Source of the DNA: Rubripirellula lacrimiformis
Lineage (GTDB): Bacteria; Planctomycetota; Planctomycetia; Pirellulales; Pirellulaceae
Direction: 5' to 3'
DNA: 64,000 nucleotides
NCBI RefSeq assembly: GCF_007741535.1
Contig: NZ_CP036525.1
Location: 744,001-808,000 of the forward strand
Part shown: positions 5,943-56,124 of the stretch, in pieces
Position numbering within the stretch: the stretch's first letter is position 1
How the letters are laid out: every line of letters begins with the position of its first letter
Made by a program: the position numbers and the translations under genes
Notes under the pieces: model-generated
Databases searched by the model: none
Seen by the model: the letters and a program-made list of their open reading frames with translations, nothing else
Told to the model about the DNA's origin: nothing

Positions 5943-5979
5943 TCCCCAGAGACGTTCTCCACGCATCCGCTGTGCCCTG

Positions 5980-6366
5980 CTAGACCACGGCAACTCGCCC
6001 TCGTTCAGGTCCACGTTCAGCCACGCGGCAGTCGATGCAGCGGACGCAATCCACACCAAGATAGAATTGCAGCGTTTCGTACCAATAACGTTGCTCTTCG
6101 GCGAAGAACAGGAAAGGGCGATCGCAATCTCGGCATCGACGTTTCAGGTCAAAATAGTGCGTTACCGGAAATGTCGCGTTCGGTTGGCGTGCGGTGTTCG
6201 CGACGATAGCAGTATCGGGAACGCGTTCATCGGGCCGCGCGAGCCAACCCAGGTAGACTCTTCCCAACAGAAAGTCTTCTTTCGGATGAAGTCCGGTAAC
6301 GCGAGGAAGCTTTCCGTAGCGAGGGTGTTGGACAAAATCGGCGTAGGCTTCGGTGCGGCGTTTCAT
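5980..6366 (-). CDS. Small zinc-ribbon protein
   Basis: The 128-residue protein has two CxxC pairs, CRDCDRPFLFFAEEQRYWYE and CVRCIDCR. This fits the probable zinc-ribbon family of C-x-x-C...F-x-A-x-E-Q-x-x-Y/W...C-x-x-C type. The first half (ADFVQHPRYGKLPRVTGLHP, FPVTHYFDL) recalls planctomycete proteins in which this ribbon follows a short N-terminal region. The ATG at 6366 (MKRRTEAYAD) is the best start; the frame stays open upstream through a TTG at 6387 to a stop at 6430-6432. Function is unknown; binding of nucleic acid or protein is likely. It ends 37 bases from the convergent hydrolase gene. Confidence 0.7.
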   Translation of the reverse strand: MKRRTEAYADFVQHPRYGKLPRVTGLHPKEDFLLGRVYLGWLARPDERVPDTAIVANTARQPNATFPVTHYFDLKRRCRDCDRPFLFFAEEQRYWYETLQFYLGVDCVRCIDCRVAERGPERGRVAVV

Positions 6367-6510
6367 TGGATGGGCGTCGGTGAACAAAGGGGCGCTGATC
6401 GGAACATCGCGATCGCAACAACTGCAATGTCATGGAGCTCCTTCCAGGGCATGAGGTTCGCTCTGTCCGCTAACCCCCATTTCAAACTCGATTGACAGGC
6501 CACCCCAAAA

Positions 6511-8201
6511 TCAGCTTCCGATCCGCCGCATAAGGGGCAAGCCTATTTTCGGCACTCCAAGCTGATACAAGGCCGCGATCTCATCGCCCGATAGGGGTTC
6601 TTGGTAGATCAGGAATTCGTCTACGCGGCCGTTCAAGTTTCTGATTGGCAGCGGCGCGCCTTCGAGTGGCAAACCCCAGTTTCCAATTTCGCACGCTCCG
6701 AACGTTACTTTGCGTCCGTTTCGATGATGCTTGCTGTCTTCACGGCTGACTTCGTCTCCGTCGAAATACTGAACCGCTTCACCAGTCATTGCATCGAAAG
6801 TCACGGCGACGTGATGCCAACGCCTGTCGCTTGCGCCAAAGATGGGGGGGATTAGAAAACCTGGCTTTGGCGATCTTCCTGGTCGGGATTCCCGCCCGGA
6901 GGCAAGGCGCGATCGTAACTGACCGAGAACATCAAGCGTCCCGATTGGTCAATTTGCCAATGGGGTTCACCGTCTTCGTATCCGTCGGACATGAACAAAG
7001 CGTTGTACTTGCGATCGAGTCCGTCGACGCGAATCCAGGCCGCCATGGTTAAACCCTGATACTGATCATTCTTCAAATGGATCCGGACACGGTCACCGGG
7101 ACTTTTGAATTCCATCGCATCCTTCGTCGGCCAGCGACCTTCTACCTAGCGCGTCCCTACGGCAGATCCAGCATACGACCGGTTTTTGGGTAGTGCGAAG
7201 TTGTTGATCAGGCGATCCCACCGGCCGTCTTCCCGACGTTTGAACAGGTAGCACCCCAAGATGCGCGGATCCGAACGGTGGGGTTCCATGGAACCCCACC
7301 AATTAGCGGACTTTCGTTTATGAAAAGACTTGATGCGTTGCTCGAATTGCTCGGCACTCGGGAAATTGACTGGCGTCGCCTCGCCCGACACGAACGTTTG
7401 GGCTTCGGATGATTCCAGACTTTCGCCTTCGCGGATGATCTGCATTGGCGAACCCGGTACATGAGCCTCGACTTCACCGTCAAAGACGTGCAGAGACGAA
7501 TCTGCCCCGTCGACCTCGACACCGAACTCGGTCCCAAGATCGACGACCTTCATCCCCGGAAGCATTAGACGGGAACCGATGGCCGGTGGCGGCATGTGCA
7601 TCGTCACTTTTCCTCGAACACACTCGGCCTCCCATGAACTGACCAGGTTGACCTCGGTCGCTTCATCTATCAGCATCGTTGCGCCACTGAAAAAGTCGAC
7701 CTGCACGGCGCCAGAAATCAGCTTCAGCGGTCCCGGGGGAAGAGAGTCACCTTCGCGATAGACAGCTCCATCAGCAAACTTTGCATCAACGATGCGAGAC
7801 AACAACGCACACCCCGATTCGACGACTTCATTCGATTCGACTGCACGAGGATCCGAGAGGGCGATTTTTGTTTGTGGACGACGGTTGCCATCGCGTCCGA
7901 TTCCGTAGCCGATCGCGAGCAGCAATACGGCGGCGACAGCGGCGACTAGCCCCAGCCAACCCACAGCACGCATGCCCTTTGCTCTCGTCGGTGCTCGCAG
8001 AGGATCCGATGCAACAGGCGTTTCGATCTCGACGTCGCTCATCAACCGCTGGTCTGTTCGACAAACGCAAGACGCCCGACGAAGACAAGCAGGAATAGAA
8101 CGAACGTCAGGTATCGGCTGCGGTGTTGATTCATCCGGTGGTACCGCTGTGTGTTGCTGGAGGTGGTTGAGTCCAATAAAATGGCGGCGCCGTTGGCGCA
8201 C
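6511..8201 (-). pseudogene. FecR-LamG membrane protein, decayed
   Basis: Three pieces of one gene are visible. The first (8201-7146) has an N-terminal transmembrane helix (VGWLGLVAAVAAVLLLAIG) and a FecR-like domain (DFFSGATMLIDEATEVNL...MKVVDLGTEFGVEV...VFDGEVEAHV). The second (7145-6852, same frame) carries the first half of a LamG/concanavalin-like domain (LTMAAWIRVDGLDRKYNALF). The third (about 6835-6511, another frame) carries the rest (RRWHHVAVTFDAMTGEAVQY...NGRVDEFLIYQEPLSGDEI). The breaks are an in-frame TAG at 7146-7148 and a frameshift near the G7 run at 6844-6850. Planctomycete FecR-LamG proteins act with ECF sigma factors; no sigma gene lies beside it. The N-terminus before MSDVEIETP is unclear. 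Confidence 0.75.
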
Positions 8202-8498
8202 GATGCGTATCGGAAGTCGTCAGCGGTTTGTCGATTGAGTCGAAGTTTTCGACGCCAATGGTGAGCCACTGGCCGTCAGGTCACGGGCATTCTGGGGGGG
8301 ATTCCCGGCCGCTCACGCGATCACGGCTCACTCAATCGACGAACCCTCAAGACTTTCGCACATTGGCAATGCAATCGAAACTCTTGACGAGTTGCTGCAA
8401 ACAAGTTGCTGGCGATCAATCCAACGAGGGTTGTGATGGAAGCTCTATCGTGGACGTTCTGGCGGTTGTTTGTGTCGCTTCATTCTTTTCAGCCTTGT
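8202..8498. other. Intergenic region, nothing recognised
   Basis: This 297-base gap lies between the esterase gene and the FecR pseudogene. It may hold decayed 5' sequence of the FecR gene. No repeat or RNA gene is seen. Confidence 0.3.
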
Positions 8499-20686: not shown

Positions 20687-20732
20687 AAAATACACCCGGC
20701 AGGATTCGAACCTGCAACCCTCGGTTCCGAAG
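20687..20732 (-). repeat. attL: 46-bp copy of the tRNA-Arg 3' region
   Basis: Identical to 50762-50807. It begins AAAATACACCCGGCAGGATT and ends in the anticodon-loop region (...TTCCGAAG). Beyond it the sequence departs from the tRNA (TTCAGAATT), so no functional tRNA can be made here. Confidence 0.92.
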
Positions 20733-49363: not shown

Positions 49364-50623
49364 TCAAAGTTTCGGGGCAACCTTCGCCGCTTCGATGGAG
49401 CGCTGCAGGCTCCTTTTGGCGTAGTGTTCGCTCATGGCTCGTTTGGAGTGTCCATGCATCGCTTGTACTGCTTCGATACCGAGTGCGTCACAGATCACCG
49501 TCGCTGCGAGGTGGCGGATTTGGTACGGGTGCCATCGTTCAACTCCGGCTCGTTTGGCAGCACGTTGGATCGATTGCCGGTAGCTATGAGACGTGAAGCA
49601 TTCGCCTGGTTGCTTCTTGGGATTCGGCTTTGCCCGGTTGATTTGGCTCGGCTGCACCTTTGATTTCCGATTCGCTCTCTTGTTTGATTGGACCCACGCA
49701 ATTGATTCGCGAGGCGAAAAGCAGGGCGCCTCGGGGGCTCGCTGTAGGTAGTCCGTCACGGCATCTCGCACATCACCGACAAGCGGTACGGCTTTCGTCT
49801 TTCCTTGGTTGGCAGTTTTGTGTTTGGCCAGTCGGTACACCCATACTTCGCCCGTTCGGTCGATGTCGCACGGACGCATCCTGCAGACCTCGCTCGGTCT
49901 CATCCCCGTTCCGACCTGAATGCGGATCATGGCTTTGAGGATCGGAGACAGTTCGGCAGCTGTTCGCCGCACCACGTCGATGTCTACGGGTTCCACATCG
50001 GCGACTTCGGGAGCTTCCGTTTGGCCCATTCGGAGCGGGTCGACGGACCGCAGGCGGAGCCAGCACGATTCATCGACTAATTCTTGCGATACGGCATACT
50101 TCCAGATCCGCACAATTAGCTTCGTTAGCGTGTTGCAGTACACGCGGGAGTAGCGTCGTCCGCTGCGAGCGTCTTTCGACTCGACCCATCGTTTTCGCTG
50201 GCGTTGCAACGCCAGCGGGCCGTAGTCTTTGGCGTCGGTGTCGCCGTCATTCGCGTCCAGGGCGGCGCAAACTTGGGTCAGTCGGTGCAATTCGGAATGG
50301 CTGTCCCGGTATCGAACGTTCGCCATTTCCAGATAGTTTGCCGTGACATGGCGCACCAAGATCGGTTGGCCGGTTTGCAGCGACGTCGTCGCGGTGGCGT
50401 GGCCCAGCAGTGCGGCTACTCGGTCTTCCAGGGATGCCAGTTCGAAATCGTCGGGCAGAGAGAGCCCGCCAGCCTGGTAGGTTCCGATCAGAACCGCATA
50501 TCGAGCGATCGCTTCGGGGCTGTCGTGGGGGCCAAGATAGAAGTCGTTGCCAGCAATGGTGACAACGGATTGGCCGCTCAAGTGGTAGCGGCGGGCAGGT
50601 GCTTTTGCTTTTGGACGTGCCAT
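49364..50623 (-). CDS. int: Tyrosine recombinase (island integrase)
   Basis: The ATG at 50623 (MARPKAKAPARRYHLSGQSV) gives 419 residues. An N-terminal SAM-like DNA-binding region precedes the catalytic domain: TGMRPSEVCRMR (Arg I), AKHKTANQGKTKAV (Lys), HPYQIRHLAATVI (His-x-x-Arg) and HGHSKRAMSEHYAK (His and the Tyr nucleophile). A Lys-rich insertion (NKRANRKSKVQPSQINRAKP) sits in the catalytic part. It begins about 140 bases from the attR/tRNA, the usual place. It should integrate and, with an excisionase, excise the island at the tRNA-Arg site. Confidence 0.93.
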   Translation of the reverse strand: MARPKAKAPARRYHLSGQSVVTIAGNDFYLGPHDSPEAIARYAVLIGTYQAGGLSLPDDFELASLEDRVAALLGHATATTSLQTGQPILVRHVTANYLEMANVRYRDSHSELHRLTQVCAALDANDGDTDAKDYGPLALQRQRKRWVESKDARSGRRYSRVYCNTLTKLIVRIWKYAVSQELVDESCWLRLRSVDPLRMGQTEAPEVADVEPVDIDVVRRTAAELSPILKAMIRIQVGTGMRPSEVCRMRPCDIDRTGEVWVYRLAKHKTANQGKTKAVPLVGDVRDAVTDYLQRAPEAPCFSPRESIAWVQSNKRANRKSKVQPSQINRAKPNPKKQPGECFTSHSYRQSIQRAAKRAGVERWHPYQIRHLAATVICDALGIEAVQAMHGHSKRAMSEHYAKRSLQRSIEAAKVAPKL

Positions 50624-50761
50624 TTGCGGAACTCCCGTTTGGAAGGTGTACCCGTCGGTTAGGACAGTTTTTCGGTACAACTTCGATTTGAAACGGGGCC
50701 GCTCGTCGCTGAGACGGTAACGCTTGGAGGCGTTCCAGCCGGTAAATCACGGTCTTTTCTG

Positions 50762-50807
50762 AAAATACACCCGGCAGGATTCGAACCTGCAACCCTCGGT
50801 TCCGAAG
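50762..50807 (-). repeat. attR: 46-bp repeat within tRNA-Arg
   Basis: Identical to 20687-20732. It covers the tRNA 3' half from the anticodon loop to the end plus four flanking bases. Confidence 0.92.
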
Positions 50808-50839
50808 ACCGATGCGCTATCCAATTGTGCCACGGGTGC
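50766..50839 (-). tRNA. tRNA-Arg (anticodon TCG), island target
   Basis: The 74-base cloverleaf on the minus strand has acceptor GCACCCG pairing with CGGGTGT (G1-U72 wobble), anticodon stem TCGGT/ACCGA with loop CTTCGGA, and T-arm GCAGG-TTCGAAT-CCTGC. The discriminator is A and no CCA is encoded. The anticodon TCG reads CGA (CGN) codons. The D-stem GCAC/GCGC has one A-C mismatch at position 12-23. Its 3' half is the attR core, so the island supplied this 3' end. Confidence 0.95.
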
Positions 50840-50896: not shown

Positions 50897-52777
50897 CTAT
50901 TTGGCGGCTGGGGGGGAGGCTTGTGGGGCGATTGTTCGGTCGAACTGGGATTTGGTCGATGCGGTGAGGCTCTCTTGCAGCAGGATCGCCGTGTAGGCGG
51001 CCAGGTGCCCGAGGACCAGAAAACCCGCTGTTTCTCGCAGTGTTGGGCACAGCAGCATCCCCGCAAGGCCCGCCATCGCACCCAGAATCATGGGGTGGGG
51101 GAGGGTGCCATAGGGAAATCGCGATATCGCTCGCGGCGCATCGAAGCCCAGTTCGGCTGAAAAATAGCTGCGGCGAAAACCCAGCACCCACGTCGAGTAG
51201 GTCGCCAGAGTGAATCCGCCCACCACGACCGGGATCGAAACGGGGGTTTCGAGGGCATATCTGGCGTAGATCACCGCCAGGATCGACATCGCGATCGTTT
51301 TGAAGAACACGGCGTTGCGTGCAAATTCGCCAAACGCGATGGATTGCCGATGCCGAAAAGTGGCGGCATAGATCCAATAGTGCACAAAGCTGCAGCCGAT
51401 CACGAAAATCCAAGTGTTCTGGGCAACCAGGCTGGCGATCGCCAGGGTGGCCACGTAGGCCAGATTGGTCCAACCTGCGAAGCGGGCGATCCATTCAAAA
51501 ATCTTGGTCCAGCCCAGCACCCAACAGGCTTTCATTTTCTGCCAGCCACTGTTCGGGTTGATCGTTTGCAGAAACAGTTGTCGAGCACGGATGTCGTAGT
51601 GCGTCGTCAGGCTGTCCAGCCATCGGCCGTACCAGGGCAGCTGTTTGGGGTAGGCGACAAAGTGCAGTTTCAAATTGATTCGCGGCTGGGTCTGCTGAGG
51701 GGCAGGCTGCCGGGTGATGTAATGCAGTTCGCGGTTGAAGTCAAAAGCGACCGCGTCGCCAGTCTGCATTTGGTAGCTGACTGGTTGGCGGTAGTCAGGC
51801 CCCAGCATGGGGAAGTGAGTGGTGACCTCGGTGTTGGGGCTGGCGGCCAGCATGCAGCGGTACAGACGGACGCCCGGAAAAACCGCCCACGGTCCATCCA
51901 CATGCGGCATGTAGAACACCGTATCCGAGCTGGCCGTTTTGGGCGGCCCGGTAACGTACAGTTCATTCATCCCCAGCACCGGGCGAACGGTGTAGCCGCT
52001 GCCATGGAACCGCCCGATCATCGACAGCAGCGAATCATGATGGCTAAGCCGATCATACGCCGCCCCCGCATCATCGCCGAGTTCATGTTGCCACCAATGG
52101 GTGCTCTGTCGCAGTGTGGGATGTTCCCGTCGCACCCAGTCGCAGATCGAATGGAGGTCTGCCCGCGAACCGCAGTCAGACAACTTGGTTGGCAGCACTG
52201 CTGAACGCGACACCAGTAAACGCAGCGGAGATTGCCGAGTCCGACTGCAGGCCATCAAGATCAGCGGCAGCAGCAGGATCGTGTGTTCGACCAACCTTGT
52301 GATGTTTCCCCGTTGTCCGATGTATGTGCTCTGCAGCGTCGGCTCGCCGGCCATCCAGTGAGCGGCTTCCTGCGCGGTATAGCCGGCTGCAAACATCGCG
52401 ACTGAAGGAATCCACCCAACTGGAAGTGAAAGGCTGGCAATCCCGATCAGTGAAAGGACAATCGCCGTTGCGAGCCAAACCCATCGCGGCACCAGCGTTG
52501 CAAGGATGCCTAGATATCCGACCACCGCACCCAGCATTAGCAGTGGATTGACGAGATTGGCAAGGCAGCACAATCCCAGCAGTGCTAGCGGTGTGGTGAC
52601 TGCGTGCAGGGCGACGTTGATCGGACGTCGATGGCACCGAATGAATTCGCGGCACAGTCGGACCCACGGCGATACGGCGGTCTTGCCGCGATGGTCAGTC
52701 GGGCTGTCGCAGTAAGGCCGGTCATGCGTCATCCGGTAGCCGGCAATGCGTTCATCGACCCAGGTATCAGTGGACAC
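50897..52777 (-). CDS. Tri-partite membrane protein: Mpo1-like + 2OG-dioxygenase-like + PEMT-like
   Basis: Residues about 40-185 resemble DUF962/Mpo1: CREFIRCHRRPINVALHAVT, several membrane helices, then GYTAQEAAHWMAGEPTLQ. His49, His58 and His140 are possible iron ligands. Residues about 230-380 look like a soluble 2-oxoglutarate/Fe dioxygenase: FYMPHVDGPWAVF (H-x-D), LHYITR (distal His), PRINLKLHFV (Arg). Residues about 430-605 are membrane-spanning and end FPYGTLPHPMILGAMAGLAG, as in PEMT/isoprenylcysteine methyltransferases. It overlaps btaB by 11 bases and is the last gene of a lipid operon. A role in modifying betaine lipid (hydroxylation, alpha-oxidation or methylation) is an inference. 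Confidence 0.7.
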   Translation of the reverse strand: MSTDTWVDERIAGYRMTHDRPYCDSPTDHRGKTAVSPWVRLCREFIRCHRRPINVALHAVTTPLALLGLCCLANLVNPLLMLGAVVGYLGILATLVPRWVWLATAIVLSLIGIASLSLPVGWIPSVAMFAAGYTAQEAAHWMAGEPTLQSTYIGQRGNITRLVEHTILLLPLILMACSRTRQSPLRLLVSRSAVLPTKLSDCGSRADLHSICDWVRREHPTLRQSTHWWQHELGDDAGAAYDRLSHHDSLLSMIGRFHGSGYTVRPVLGMNELYVTGPPKTASSDTVFYMPHVDGPWAVFPGVRLYRCMLAASPNTEVTTHFPMLGPDYRQPVSYQMQTGDAVAFDFNRELHYITRQPAPQQTQPRINLKLHFVAYPKQLPWYGRWLDSLTTHYDIRARQLFLQTINPNSGWQKMKACWVLGWTKIFEWIARFAGWTNLAYVATLAIASLVAQNTWIFVIGCSFVHYWIYAATFRHRQSIAFGEFARNAVFFKTIAMSILAVIYARYALETPVSIPVVVGGFTLATYSTWVLGFRRSYFSAELGFDAPRAISRFPYGTLPHPMILGAMAGLAGMLLCPTLRETAGFLVLGHLAAYTAILLQESLTASTKSQFDRTIAPQASPPAAK

Positions 52778-53600
52778 GATCTGGCCTATTGGGTGCAGAG
52801 AGGTTTGTGTCGGCGGAGACTTGCAAGGTTGGAGTCGCGATGGGTGTCGAGTCCGCTTTGCGCCCCATGAATAGGTAGTAGGGGGCTCGGGCCATCGGCA
52901 GGTAAGGCACGCTTCCGAGCCGTTCTTCGCATCGCTGGATTTCGAATCGTCGGTCTAGCATTGCCAGGTGGTCGCCGTTTAGAAAGACGTTGTCGGCGGC
53001 GAACCAAAGCGACCAGAACGATCGACGTAGCCAGCCGTGTTGACGGCGATCCGTATCGGCATGTTTACGAGAAACATAGAAGTCCGTCACCGCGATCAAC
53101 CCACCAGGTTTCAGGATTCGGTGGGCGGTTTCGATGGCCGCAAACCAATCCGGGATCATGGTCAGTGAATACGAGAACGTGACCACATCGACGCTAGCGT
53201 CGGGCAGGTCCAACAGGGTCGCATCGGTGTGGTGAATCTGGGCGTTGTCGATCTGGTTGGCTTGGATGCGTTGCTGAGCGACCTGCAGTAGCGACGACGA
53301 CAGATCGACCAGGTGGATCTGGTTCATTTTTACAGCTCGGGGGCCCGCAGCGAACAAGTTGTGTCCGGTGCCAGCACCCATGTCGACCCAAATCCCCTGG
53401 TCGGGAAACGGGATCCAAGCGATGAGGTCCGATCGGCCGTGCAACATGCGGGCACGGAACGAATCGTAGTCGTTGGCCTGGCCTCGATAGAAATTCTCTA
53501 GCCGCCGTTCGTGCGTGTCCCCGTGGACCGGACTGCACAGCAGATGCCACAGGATTCGCAGGTCGGACCAACGCGAGATCGGTTTGCTGAGGTCGATCAT
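52767..53600 (-). CDS. btaB: BtaB-like SAM methyltransferase (betaine lipid)
   Basis: The 277-residue class I methyltransferase has GIWVDMGAGTGHNLFAAG (SAM motif I), IHLVDLSSSLLQVAQQRI (acidic motif II) and DVVTFSYSLTMIPDW, then ILKPGGLIAVTDFYVSRKH. In Rhodobacter, BtaB trimethylates the homoserine lipid made by BtaA to DGTS. The assignment rests on the fold plus overlap with btaA (ATGA, 4 bases). The N-terminal RLENFYRGQANDYDSFR is the typical BtaB opening. Confidence 0.85.
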   Translation of the reverse strand: MIDLSKPISRWSDLRILWHLLCSPVHGDTHERRLENFYRGQANDYDSFRARMLHGRSDLIAWIPFPDQGIWVDMGAGTGHNLFAAGPRAVKMNQIHLVDLSSSLLQVAQQRIQANQIDNAQIHHTDATLLDLPDASVDVVTFSYSLTMIPDWFAAIETAHRILKPGGLIAVTDFYVSRKHADTDRRQHGWLRRSFWSLWFAADNVFLNGDHLAMLDRRFEIQRCEERLGSVPYLPMARAPYYLFMGRKADSTPIATPTLQVSADTNLSAPNRPDRVH

Positions 53601-54874
53601 GCGGCGACTCCCGCATCGGTGCTGCTTGGGTGGGTTCCGTCGCGATGCAGGTCGGCGATATAGAAACTGCCGTAGGTATGGACTCGATCGCGGGCATGCA
53701 GTTCGCTGGCCAGTTGGGTTTGGTAGCGGAGTAGTTCGCCCATCCGCATCGATTTGCCGCAGTCACGGATCCATAGTGGATCCACGAAATCGACGTTCAG
53801 CGCGGCGCTGCGCCACAGGATTCGGGCACCCGGTGCGGCGCGATCCAGAATGCTCTGCCACTCGGACGCCAGTCGGTCGGGGAAGCGGTCATAAAGCCAG
53901 TCCATGTGGTCCAGCAAAACAAAGCGGCTGATTGGCGAGTGGTGTTTGGAGAGGAATCCTTCGACGGTATTGGTGATGGTCTGGACGCTGTCGACTAGTC
54001 CAGACTGCAGCCGATCGAATCCGTCGGCGGTTAGGTATTCGGGACAGCAGTCCGGGGTGTAGCTGCCGGTCAGGTAGACTCGCCAGAAATAGTTCTCACG
54101 CAGCGGCAGCTTCTTGAATACCGCTTCGATGCGATCTTGGATAAAGCGGCCGATCCCACCTGGGTAGCCACGGTCAAGTTGTGCCCGTTGGCTGGCGGGA
54201 ACGCCAAGCATTGCGAGCGTGGTGTCGCGGCGGAGTGCCCAGCGAAGTGGCTTGCTCCACAGCAGGTCGTTGATGCCTCGGTCGTCGTAGATCTGTTGTT
54301 GTTGCTGGACCGATTCTGCATTCAGGATTTCGTCGATGGCATCCTTTAGACCGGCGGGACGCTTCAAATATCCGTTCATCATCCAGGCAAAAAGTCCGGA
54401 CGTGCCGCGGAAATAGAAGCTTTTTCGGCGTGTCGATCCATCAAAGAAATCCGCTCGCCGATCCCAGGTCGATTGATAGGCCTGAGGCAGATGGGGGCGA
54501 ATTTGTTTCTGGTACAGGGATTCCCAGTCGGGGTGGAAGCCGCGGCCGAAGATTTGGAAAAAGTCGTCGTGGTCCAGGCCGCGAATCGCCGCCATCTTGA
54601 GTTCTAGCAAAGCGTTCTGCAGCGGGTTCATGTCGACCGCAAAGACGTCTTTGGGACCCTGCAATGCGTAGTCCAACGCGTTGCAGCCGGCCGAGGTGAT
54701 CACCAGCACCGAATCTTTCGTTGTCAGGTCGAGTGCCTGGCGGTCGATCCGAGGGTCTTCCCAGCAGGTGTTGTAGACGAGGTTCTTTTGGTGAACGACC
54801 GAGAAGCATTTGTTGCCAAGCCACTGGGTGACCATGCCATTATCTTTCGTAAAGAGCGTGAGTGAACGAAACAA
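53597..54874 (-). CDS. btaA: BtaA: SAM:diacylglycerol 3-amino-3-carboxypropyltransferase
   Basis: The 425-residue DUF3419 protein shows NLVYNTCWEDPRIDRQALD, VLVITSAGCNALDYALQGP, VFAVDMNPLQNALLELKMAA, then FFQIFGRG and late DHMDWLYDRFPDRLASEW with GARILWRSAA. BtaA transfers the 3-amino-3-carboxypropyl group of SAM to diacylglycerol, the first step of betaine-lipid synthesis. It begins 2 bases after the stop of the phospholipase-like gene, which would supply the diacylglycerol. Confidence 0.92.
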   Translation of the reverse strand: MFRSLTLFTKDNGMVTQWLGNKCFSVVHQKNLVYNTCWEDPRIDRQALDLTTKDSVLVITSAGCNALDYALQGPKDVFAVDMNPLQNALLELKMAAIRGLDHDDFFQIFGRGFHPDWESLYQKQIRPHLPQAYQSTWDRRADFFDGSTRRKSFYFRGTSGLFAWMMNGYLKRPAGLKDAIDEILNAESVQQQQQIYDDRGINDLLWSKPLRWALRRDTTLAMLGVPASQRAQLDRGYPGGIGRFIQDRIEAVFKKLPLRENYFWRVYLTGSYTPDCCPEYLTADGFDRLQSGLVDSVQTITNTVEGFLSKHHSPISRFVLLDHMDWLYDRFPDRLASEWQSILDRAAPGARILWRSAALNVDFVDPLWIRDCGKSMRMGELLRYQTQLASELHARDRVHTYGSFYIADLHRDGTHPSSTDAGVAA

Positions 54875-54876
54875 GT

Positions 54877-55779
54877 TCAGACGGCAAATTCTTTGGCCGC
54901 TGCTTCAAAGTTGGGTGCAGAAGAGAAACCAGGTTCGGTAAGGACGAGGCCCGGATCGATGGCTATCGGCAAGGGGTGATCCGGGGATTGCCGTGCGGGC
55001 AGGTCCAGAATGATGTCTTCGTCATAGCGACGGACCAGCTGGATCTGGCCATCGTGGCATTCCACCAAACCGGTACAGTTTTCGACCCAGTCGCCGGTGT
55101 TGCAGTACCACATCGAATCGGTGGTAACGATGTCGGGGGTATGGATATGGCCACAGACAATCCCGTCACAGTCGCGGAGGCGGGCATGGTCCAGGATTTT
55201 AGATTCGAAGTTGCTGATGAATCGGATGGACCGTTTCACGCGATCCTTCAGCACGGCACATACGCCGTAGGGGTTGCAGGATTCGGCGAACGTATATCGG
55301 TGCAGCCACCAGTTCAGGCTAAGGCAGGCGTCGTACAGAGCCGATGTGCCCTTGGAAAGCCACTGGGCCTGCATCTCGACACAATCGAAAAGGTCACCGT
55401 GAGTGACCAGGAAACGCCAGCCGGCGAGGGTTTCGAACACAAATTCGTTGGCGACTTCGACCCTCGAAAATTCATCGGGCAAGGCGCTTCGCAGCACCGA
55501 ACTGCGAAGAAAGGCATCATGGTTGCCCGGTACGTAGAACACTTTGGTGCCGCGTCGGGTCAGCTCGATCAGGTGCGAAATCACGTTGTCGCAATCCTGG
55601 GTCCAATGCCAGCCGGTGTTGATCTTCCAGCCGTCGATGAAGTCGCCCACCAGGTAGATGTTCTCCGGTGCGAAGCCTTGCAGGAAGTTCAGGAATTCTT
55701 TTGATTGCGAGTGTTTGCATCCGAGATGGACGTCGCTGACCAGCAGCGTACGGACAGGTTTCGCATCAGCCTGGTCCAT
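54877..55779 (-). CDS. plcP: PlcP-type metallophosphoesterase (phospholipase C)
   Basis: The 300-residue calcineurin-like enzyme carries LLVSDVHLGCKHSQSKEF (D-x-H), NIYLVGDFIDGWKI (GD-x-x-D), VFYVPGNHDAFLR (GNH-D), FLVTHGDLFDCVEM and CDGIVCGHIHTPDI. Relatives are often labelled UDP-2,3-diacylglucosamine pyrophosphatase. The W-x-I/L-x-x-x-W-x-W and F-E-x-K-I-L regions and the bta neighbours point to PlcP, which cleaves phospholipids to diacylglycerol on phosphate starvation in Sinorhizobium. It appears to be the first gene of the operon. Confidence 0.82.
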   Translation of the reverse strand: MDQADAKPVRTLLVSDVHLGCKHSQSKEFLNFLQGFAPENIYLVGDFIDGWKINTGWHWTQDCDNVISHLIELTRRGTKVFYVPGNHDAFLRSSVLRSALPDEFSRVEVANEFVFETLAGWRFLVTHGDLFDCVEMQAQWLSKGTSALYDACLSLNWWLHRYTFAESCNPYGVCAVLKDRVKRSIRFISNFESKILDHARLRDCDGIVCGHIHTPDIVTTDSMWYCNTGDWVENCTGLVECHDGQIQLVRRYDEDIILDLPARQSPDHPLPIAIDPGLVLTEPGFSSAPNFEAAAKEFAV

Positions 55780-56124
55780 GGCAGCTTTTCCTTTCTCATT
55801 GGTGGCAAACGCTTGTCGTGGAGATCGGTCTCCGGCTTGGAAATCGGCCTCACTGGCGACTCGGTCAGCAGCCTAGCAATGGGGTATGTGAATTGAGTTA
55901 AGTCCAGTCGCAGGTTGCCAGAAGTTTTTGCGACGGGGCGGGAACGTCGGGGTGGGAACGTCGGGGTGGGAACGTCGGGGTGGGAACGTCGGGGTGGGAA
56001 CGTCGGGGTGGGAGACGGCGATTCGGGGGGGCGTTGGGGGTGGACTCTCTATCTGCGGTCGAATTGCTACAATTTGCCGTTTGGATTCCTGCTGACGACT
56101 TGTTTCACCGCGAAGGATTTTTTG
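55780..56124. promoter_or_regulatory. Divergent intergenic region before plcP and the DinB-like gene
   Basis: 345 bases hold promoters for both directions. I looked for a Pho-box-like pair of CTGTCAT repeats before plcP and found none that is convincing. The 14-bp tandem repeat lies within. Confidence 0.4.
55940..56009. repeat. Five tandem copies of a 14-bp unit
   Basis: GGGAACGTCGGGGT repeats perfectly five times. It lies between divergent genes, 115 bases before the DinB-like start. Copy number could vary by slippage. Confidence 0.9.

Follow-up and report, generated by a model that had tools for sequence, protein, structure and literature searches.

A three-part membrane protein encoded behind plcP-btaA-btaB in Rubripirellula lacrimiformis, a candidate tailoring enzyme of betaine lipids

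Introduction

In the formation of the betaine lipid diacylglyceryl-N,N,N-trimethylhomoserine (DGTS), PlcP strips the head group from a phospholipid to leave diacylglycerol, BtaA adds a homoserine group from S-adenosylmethionine (SAM), and BtaB trimethylates the product. In type-1 plcP clusters, such as that of Phaeobacter sp. MED193, btaA and btaB lie downstream of plcP, which is induced by phosphate starvation and required for DGTS (PMC4796936). The same three genes occur in a 64,000-nucleotide stretch of the Rubripirellula lacrimiformis genome (contig NZ_CP036525.1, positions 744,001 to 808,000; hereafter the window, to which all unlabelled coordinates refer), but the present locus carries at the end of the operon an additional fourth gene, which encodes a three-part protein.

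The interpretation put forward here, tentatively and with somewhat less than even confidence, is that the fourth protein is bound to the membrane and, under phosphate starvation, tailors the betaine lipid produced by BtaA and BtaB through oxidation and methylation. It draws on gene order and tight spacing, on conservation with purifying selection and preserved motif residues, and on a promoter motif in one genome where the fourth gene is not linked to the operon.

An operon of four genes

Open reading frame (ORF) calling places four genes on the minus strand at 50897-55779, in the order plcP, btaA, btaB and fourth gene. These genes, the parts of the fourth protein and the motif upstream of plcP are as follows:

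54877..55779, minus strand: plcP, PlcP-type phospholipase C (calcineurin-like metallophosphoesterase), 300 residues; Pfam Metallophos, E 1.7e-12
53597..54874, minus strand: btaA, diacylglyceryl-homoserine synthase (DUF3419), 425 residues, TTG start; Pfam DUF3419, E 2.7e-118
52767..53600, minus strand: btaB, class-I SAM N-methyltransferase, 277 residues; Pfam Methyltransf_31, E 8.7e-18
50897..52777, minus strand: fourth gene, an ORF for a three-part membrane protein of 626 residues, GTG start; whole fusion in 13 genomes, the window's included
52322..52666, minus strand: Mpo1-like membrane part of the fourth protein, residues 38-152, with H49, N54, H58, P63, Q136, H140 and E145; from Pfam and hhalign
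51542..52228, minus strand: middle part, residues 184-412, an orphan domain and candidate Fe(II)/2-oxoglutarate (2OG) oxygenase, with H292-x-D294, H352 and R366; from invariant residues
50963..51505, minus strand: PEMT-like membrane methyltransferase part, residues 425-605, with H561-P562, G566 and E602; from Pfam PEMT
55868..55903, minus strand: promoter-like motif upstream of plcP, TTAACT...TTCACA...TGCTA; best matrix match in the window

An earlier note, made from the DNA letters alone, had described four overlapping genes, which is the case for btaA and btaB (4 nt) and for btaB and the fourth gene (11 nt), whereas 2 nt lie between plcP and btaA. Among the ten relatives in which the fourth gene is linked to the operon, plcP lies 5' of btaA and the order plcP-btaA-btaB is kept in all ten, with btaA 64-72% identical. 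The PlcP, BtaA and BtaB assignments of that note agree with the Pfam family matches and with the way in which the genes of the published type-1 cluster are arranged (PMC4796936); since the order is the same, these are ordinary genes, and the three together are, as judged from sequence, a cluster of the known phosphate-starvation betaine-lipid (DGTS) type.

Distribution and conservation of the fourth gene

Matches to the fourth protein were found in 11 of the 149 genomes of a family sample, ten of them whole and one truncated; this sample includes Stieleria tagensis (Pirellulaceae, order Pirellulales, according to NCBI), whose fourth gene is identical in loci L013 and L023. The middle domain occurs in 14 of 396 genomes sampled from the order, as 13 whole fusions and one stand-alone homologue (genome G763). 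The 13 fusions comprise ten family genomes, with the window's counted, plus G815, G824 and G540, the last from another family. The truncated copy, in a genome of the same genus (G131; L022 1595-2080), breaks off at about 109-110 residues, is followed by unrelated sequence and lies directly behind btaB. A shortened copy in Stieleria sedimenti (L014) was left out of the fusion count; this locus shows two internal deletions (5973-8359), one fusing plcP to btaB and the other removing approximately residues 123-289 of the fourth protein, and the deletions may be either real or an assembly artefact.

Across the phylum, a whole-protein profile matched in 2 of 392 genomes (G000 and G038) and a middle-part profile at E 0.05 in 3 of 294, the third being a chance match; neither gave a further convincing member. 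A match in G399 (E 0.0496) was rejected after reading its ORF. Because at most 3 (whole-protein profile), 10 (middle profile) and 7 (order scan) first-look candidates per genome were scored in the rows listed, weak relatives may have been missed. Three scans of viral contigs gave no relatives. In tblastn searches, plasmids gave no real matches to the middle part, to the whole protein or to the G763 protein, nor did phages, for which the G763 protein was the only query. Two Rhizobium matches to the middle part (E 0.08-0.09) were discarded, the one that was read being antisense to an aldolase gene.

Ten whole fusions, the window's included, align from end to end, the other nine being 45-53% identical to the window protein and free of stops. 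The ratio of non-synonymous to synonymous substitution rates (dN/dS; Nei-Gojobori, four pairs of relatives) is 0.06-0.17 wherever unsaturated, both over the full length and part by part; the pair G111/G086 is unsaturated in the C-terminal part only, and G111/G815 is saturated there. In view of this end-to-end alignment and low dN/dS the fourth gene is not a chance ORF, and all three of its parts are, as estimated from these rates, under purifying selection.

The fourth gene lies directly 3' of btaB in 11 of the 13 genomes with a whole fusion, its start falling between -11 and +80 nt from the btaB stop, and is unlinked in the other two (G028 and G540). All 13 have btaA, compared with 103 of the 149 genomes of the family sample, where the fourth gene is present in 11 and is therefore accessory to btaAB. 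In 16 further btaA regions (from 15 genomes with no match to the fourth gene, plus that of G028), the fourth gene was near btaA in none, and plcP adjoined btaA in seven. In a quick tree of btaA with 34 rows (the 30 best family loci and four others, with the truncated copy of G131 scored as present), the presence of the fourth gene requires 7 changes, 4 of them forced by starred branches, which suggests repeated gain or loss of the gene with the linkage maintained; 5 of 500 shuffles were as low, 13 of the 31 inner branches carry a star, and the branches of G540 and G141 are long. The link between the fourth gene and this pathway, claimed in the earlier note from the overlap with btaB, is thus upheld by its position in 11 of 13 genomes, by btaA in all 13 and by the plcP promoter motif in one of the two unlinked cases.

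Eight family genomes have, besides btaA, a second and distant DUF3419/BtaA-like match (25-29% identical), for example G131:C287 and G028:C1:288994. In G037, a genome without the fourth gene, btaB is followed, after about 470 nt, by another class-I methyltransferase gene of the same orientation (L055 3556-4341).

The three parts of the fourth protein

The N-terminal part has hydrophobic segments and, in the alignment of ten members, motifs of the CHRRPxNxxxHxxTTP and Gx3Qx3Hx4E kind. Pfam Mpo1-like (PF06127) matches the window protein below its cut-off of 24 (E 0.024, 15.2 bits; 13.3 bits in G540) and five of the ten members sub-threshold, with a best E of 0.024. Comparison by hhalign with five Mpo1 members (from five of seven Mpo1 loci, with L079 left out for its wrong-frame row) gave 96.6% and E 5.7e-10 as a one-to-one comparison, while three control pairs gave less than 1%, in line with the Mpo1-like label that this part had been given. 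H49, H58 and H140 are invariant in the ten members, stand at matching places in the Mpo1 members and are presumably iron-binding. A Pfam Mpo1-like scan of 59 genomes of the phylum gave a match in six and none in the window's own genome.

The middle part is the most conserved, with a mean column identity of 71% as against 60% for the whole protein. In all of 12 rows, the stand-alone G763 protein (28% identical) among them, H292, D294, H352 and R366 are unchanged; they lie within the signature HVDGPW...FDFNRELHYI...RINLKLHF. They form a 2-His-1-carboxylate triad with a basic residue after the second His, a pattern that is weak by itself and whose HxD...H...R spacing we take to be plausible for Fe(II)/2OG oxygenases. 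Searches of Pfam, NCBIfam, PHROGs and PDB sequences gave nothing significant for the middle part, the PDB searches returning either no match at E 10 or only chance matches at E 0.23 or worse. The description of this part as 2OG-dioxygenase-like therefore stands at the level of the motif and finds no counterpart in the libraries searched or in three small 2OG-oxygenase profiles.

In G763 the middle domain forms a gene of its own (300 residues, with a hydrophobic C-terminus), the ATG of which overlaps the TGA stop of a gene of the fatty-acid-hydroxylase superfamily (L137 7206-9301; Pfam FA_hydroxylase, E 4.6e-28). The only NCBIfam match of this neighbour is OlsE, an ornithine lipid hydroxylase (NF052566), at 114 bits against a cut-off of 475. 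Given this overlap with an OlsE-like gene, the middle domain lies beside lipid oxidation in another setting.

The C-terminal part matches Pfam PEMT (PF04191) in the window protein with E 4.8e-5 and 24.2 bits, just under the cut-off of 25. Matches were obtained in all ten members, the best with E 3.7e-7, and the G540 fusion passes the cut-off with 33.4 bits, which supports the PEMT-like label. Isolated Pfam matches in single members (T2SSL, DNA_meth_N, DUF6837 and Secretin_N, E 0.019 or worse) were taken as chance.

The earlier note knew of no description of these three parts together, and none of a Mpo1-like/2OG/PEMT-type fusion was found among the titles and abstract beginnings listed from an open-access library, in which subscription journals are mostly missing; nor is such an enzyme described in the available portions of PMC9892843 or PMC12493201.

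Promoter motif and phosphate context

The sequence TTAACA-N5-TTCACA is found with at least 10 of 12 matches upstream of plcP in 11 of 18 loci, with 0.2 expected from shuffles, a post hoc count because the motif was spotted by eye in the same 18 loci and then tested there (L015 was outside the plcP upstream regions inspected). A GCTA or GATA block follows in most sites, and the motif resembles, in our estimation, the TTAACA-type Pho boxes of Bacillus. The window's own promoter has only 8 of 12 matches at N5 spacing, a number that rises to 11 of 12 if the half-sites are set 3 nt apart. A classical PhoB box (CTGTCAT repeats) was also considered and is unsupported, standing out in one of the 18 upstream regions (L059, with 4 of 200 shuffles as good).

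A matrix made from relatives only (8 of 11 sites, three near-copies being thinned) was scanned at threshold 13 over 84 loci and 648,675 bases, duplicate regions among them. It gave 23 matches scoring at least 13, of which 14 are matrix sites, near-copies, duplicates or the plcP of L014. A further four belong to plcP promoters that were not used for the matrix (L057, the window, L055 and L059), all of which belonged to the 18 seen by eye, as that of L014 did not, and four lie at unrelated or unclear places (L110, L059 at 7181, L068 and L063). The window site scores 16.8, the best of its 64 kb, followed by 12.2. The unlinked fourth gene of G028, a locus that played no role in the discovery of the motif, is preceded by a match of 14.1, the best in its 15 kb (next 6.7), which ends 12 nt before the first possible start of the gene. 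Three shuffled 64-kb sequences had maxima of 9.7-13.2, so the G028 score is only modestly above noise, and the position of the match is the stronger point.

The fourth gene of G028 has as convergent neighbour pstS (TIGR00975 over cut-off), 506 nt apart; among the best matches listed, none lies before this pstS. In G045, which is without the fourth gene, plcP-btaA-btaB is directly followed, after about 100 nt, by genes for a PBP_like_2 binding protein and a permease. These two neighbourhoods point in the same direction as the motif, which is a pointer to phosphate control, and such control is inferred.

Just upstream of the plcP promoter motif there is a 14-bp tandem repeat (55934-56013; 5.7 copies, 98% matches). 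On the other side of the operon, a likely integrative element of about 30 kb extends over 20687-50807, leaving the fourth gene just outside. A 46-bp direct repeat marks its ends (20687-20732 and 50762-50807), the latter copy covering the 3' end of a tRNA-Arg gene (50766-50839), and a tyrosine integrase is encoded within it at 49364-50680.

Discussion

The locus can be read as a phosphate-starvation lipid-remodelling operon, in which PlcP would release diacylglycerol, BtaA would convert it to the homoserine lipid and BtaB would complete DGTS. The fourth gene would be expressed with the operon, and its product, embedded in the membrane, would modify the finished betaine lipid. The middle part, as a putative Fe(II)/2OG oxygenase, and the His-rich Mpo1-like part, as a putative non-haem iron oxygenase, would oxidise this lipid, and the PEMT-like part would transfer a methyl group to it. 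If DGTS is the substrate, modification of the head group is more likely than modification of the acyl chain. The protein looks suited to oxidising and methylating a lipid, and its product may be a membrane lipid not yet known.

Several observations weigh against this tailoring of DGTS. Methyl transfer by the PEMT-like part is difficult to envisage when BtaB has already trimethylated the head group, and 92 of the 103 family genomes with btaA are without the fourth gene. The plcP promoters of L020, L021 and L062, the first two of them linked loci, have no motif match at threshold 13, and the unlinked fourth gene of G540 is without the plcP promoter motif in the matrix scan. In G763 the middle domain is present and btaA was not found in a genome 69% complete. 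The middle part gave less than 1% in hhalign against sets of PhyH (18 sequences), 2OG-FeII_Oxy_3 (7, weakened by row L117, which looks like a wrong-strand read) and AspH/PF05118 (3), these being the rows left of 27, 9 and 4 after a stop and length filter. Its AlphaFold2 models, from only 3 and 4 sequences, are unusable as evidence on a double-stranded beta-helix fold, with a mean predicted local distance difference test score (pLDDT) of 41 and 43.5; a Foldseek search with the second, poor model returned nothing at E 0.001 or better and was taken as meaningless. With the profile comparisons failing and both models unusable, the Fe(II)/2OG class of the middle part is a hypothesis.

A different lipid may be modified within the same phosphate-starvation response, whether ornithine or another amino lipid or the phosphatidylethanolamine that is being replaced, an explanation that we consider unlikely, though deserving of attention. 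The unlinked fusions of G028, beside pstS, and of G540 would fit it, as would the stand-alone middle domain of G763 next to an OlsE-like gene where btaA was not found; the presence of btaA in all 13 whole-fusion genomes, and the position directly behind btaB in 11, speak for the betaine lipid instead.

Tailoring of the acyl chain appears slightly less probable still. LpxO and OlsC hydroxylate acyl chains at C-2, and Mpo1 acts on 2-hydroxy fatty acids, as its Pfam family name also says. The middle part could thus hydroxylate an acyl chain at C-2 and the Mpo1-like part cleave the resulting 2-hydroxy acid, leaving shortened or odd chains, with the PEMT part methylating a carboxyl or hydroxyl. It would be logical for a 2-hydroxylase to be paired with an Mpo1 within a single protein, and the motif histidines are kept, but the middle part has no match to the small three-sequence AspH (PF05118) profile, the genomic link is to head-group genes and the PEMT part is left unexplained.

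Mpo1-like enzymes are degradative and oxygenases also serve betaine catabolism, so the fourth protein might serve to break down or recycle betaine lipid, or betaine head groups in free form, instead of making a new membrane lipid; the near-zero spacing behind synthesis genes and the plcP promoter motif in one unlinked case make this improbable. Finally, an inactive or structural membrane protein with relic domains, to which the truncated copy behind btaB in G131 and the patchy presence could be attributed, is very hard to reconcile with a dN/dS of 0.06-0.17 where unsaturated and with invariant motif residues in all parts.

The tailoring of DGTS, if it takes place, would extend bacterial betaine lipids beyond plain DGTS and, if true, would offer a genetic handle on modified betaine lipids used as phosphate-stress markers. 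In a much bolder and rather doubtful form of this proposal, the fourth protein would found a new family of membrane lipid oxygenases and act on the head group of DGTS by oxidative C-C cleavage or decarboxylation, by hydroxylation and by methyl transfer, so as to yield another betaine lipid. Such a conversion could supply a step that is missing on the way to diacylglyceryl hydroxymethyltrimethyl-β-alanine (DGTA), of which DGTS is the inferred precursor; DGTA production depends on Bta1 in a fungus, and decarboxylation and recarboxylation between DGTS and DGTA have been cited for algae (all in PMC6383925). How marine heterotrophic bacteria arrive at DGTA had, according to a statement of 2015, yet to be characterised (PMC4796936).

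Comparison with known systems

The N-terminal part shares with the Mpo1-like family (PF06127) the membrane helices and the H-x4-N-x3-H-x4-P and Q-x3-H motifs, and differs from it in the approximately 70 residues between the two motifs, in being part of a fusion and in scoring below the Pfam cut-off. The middle part has the HxD...H...R pattern in common with Fe(II)/2OG oxygenases (PhyH, 2OG-FeII_Oxy_3, AspH/LpxO) and differs from them in having no sequence or profile match and unusable structure models; it is an orphan family whose invariant pattern looks like a metal site, and solving it could bring to light a further group of oxygenases. OlsE-type hydroxylases (NF052566) are a lipid hydroxylase family to which the neighbour of the only stand-alone middle-domain protein seen is related, although that neighbour is far below the OlsE cut-off and the FA_hydroxylase family is unrelated to the middle part. 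With the PEMT phospholipid methyltransferases (PF04191), finally, the fourth protein shares the C-terminal membrane domain and the HP-x3-G pattern with a Glu, but here this part is fused to oxygenase-like parts and encoded beside a BtaB that already trimethylates.

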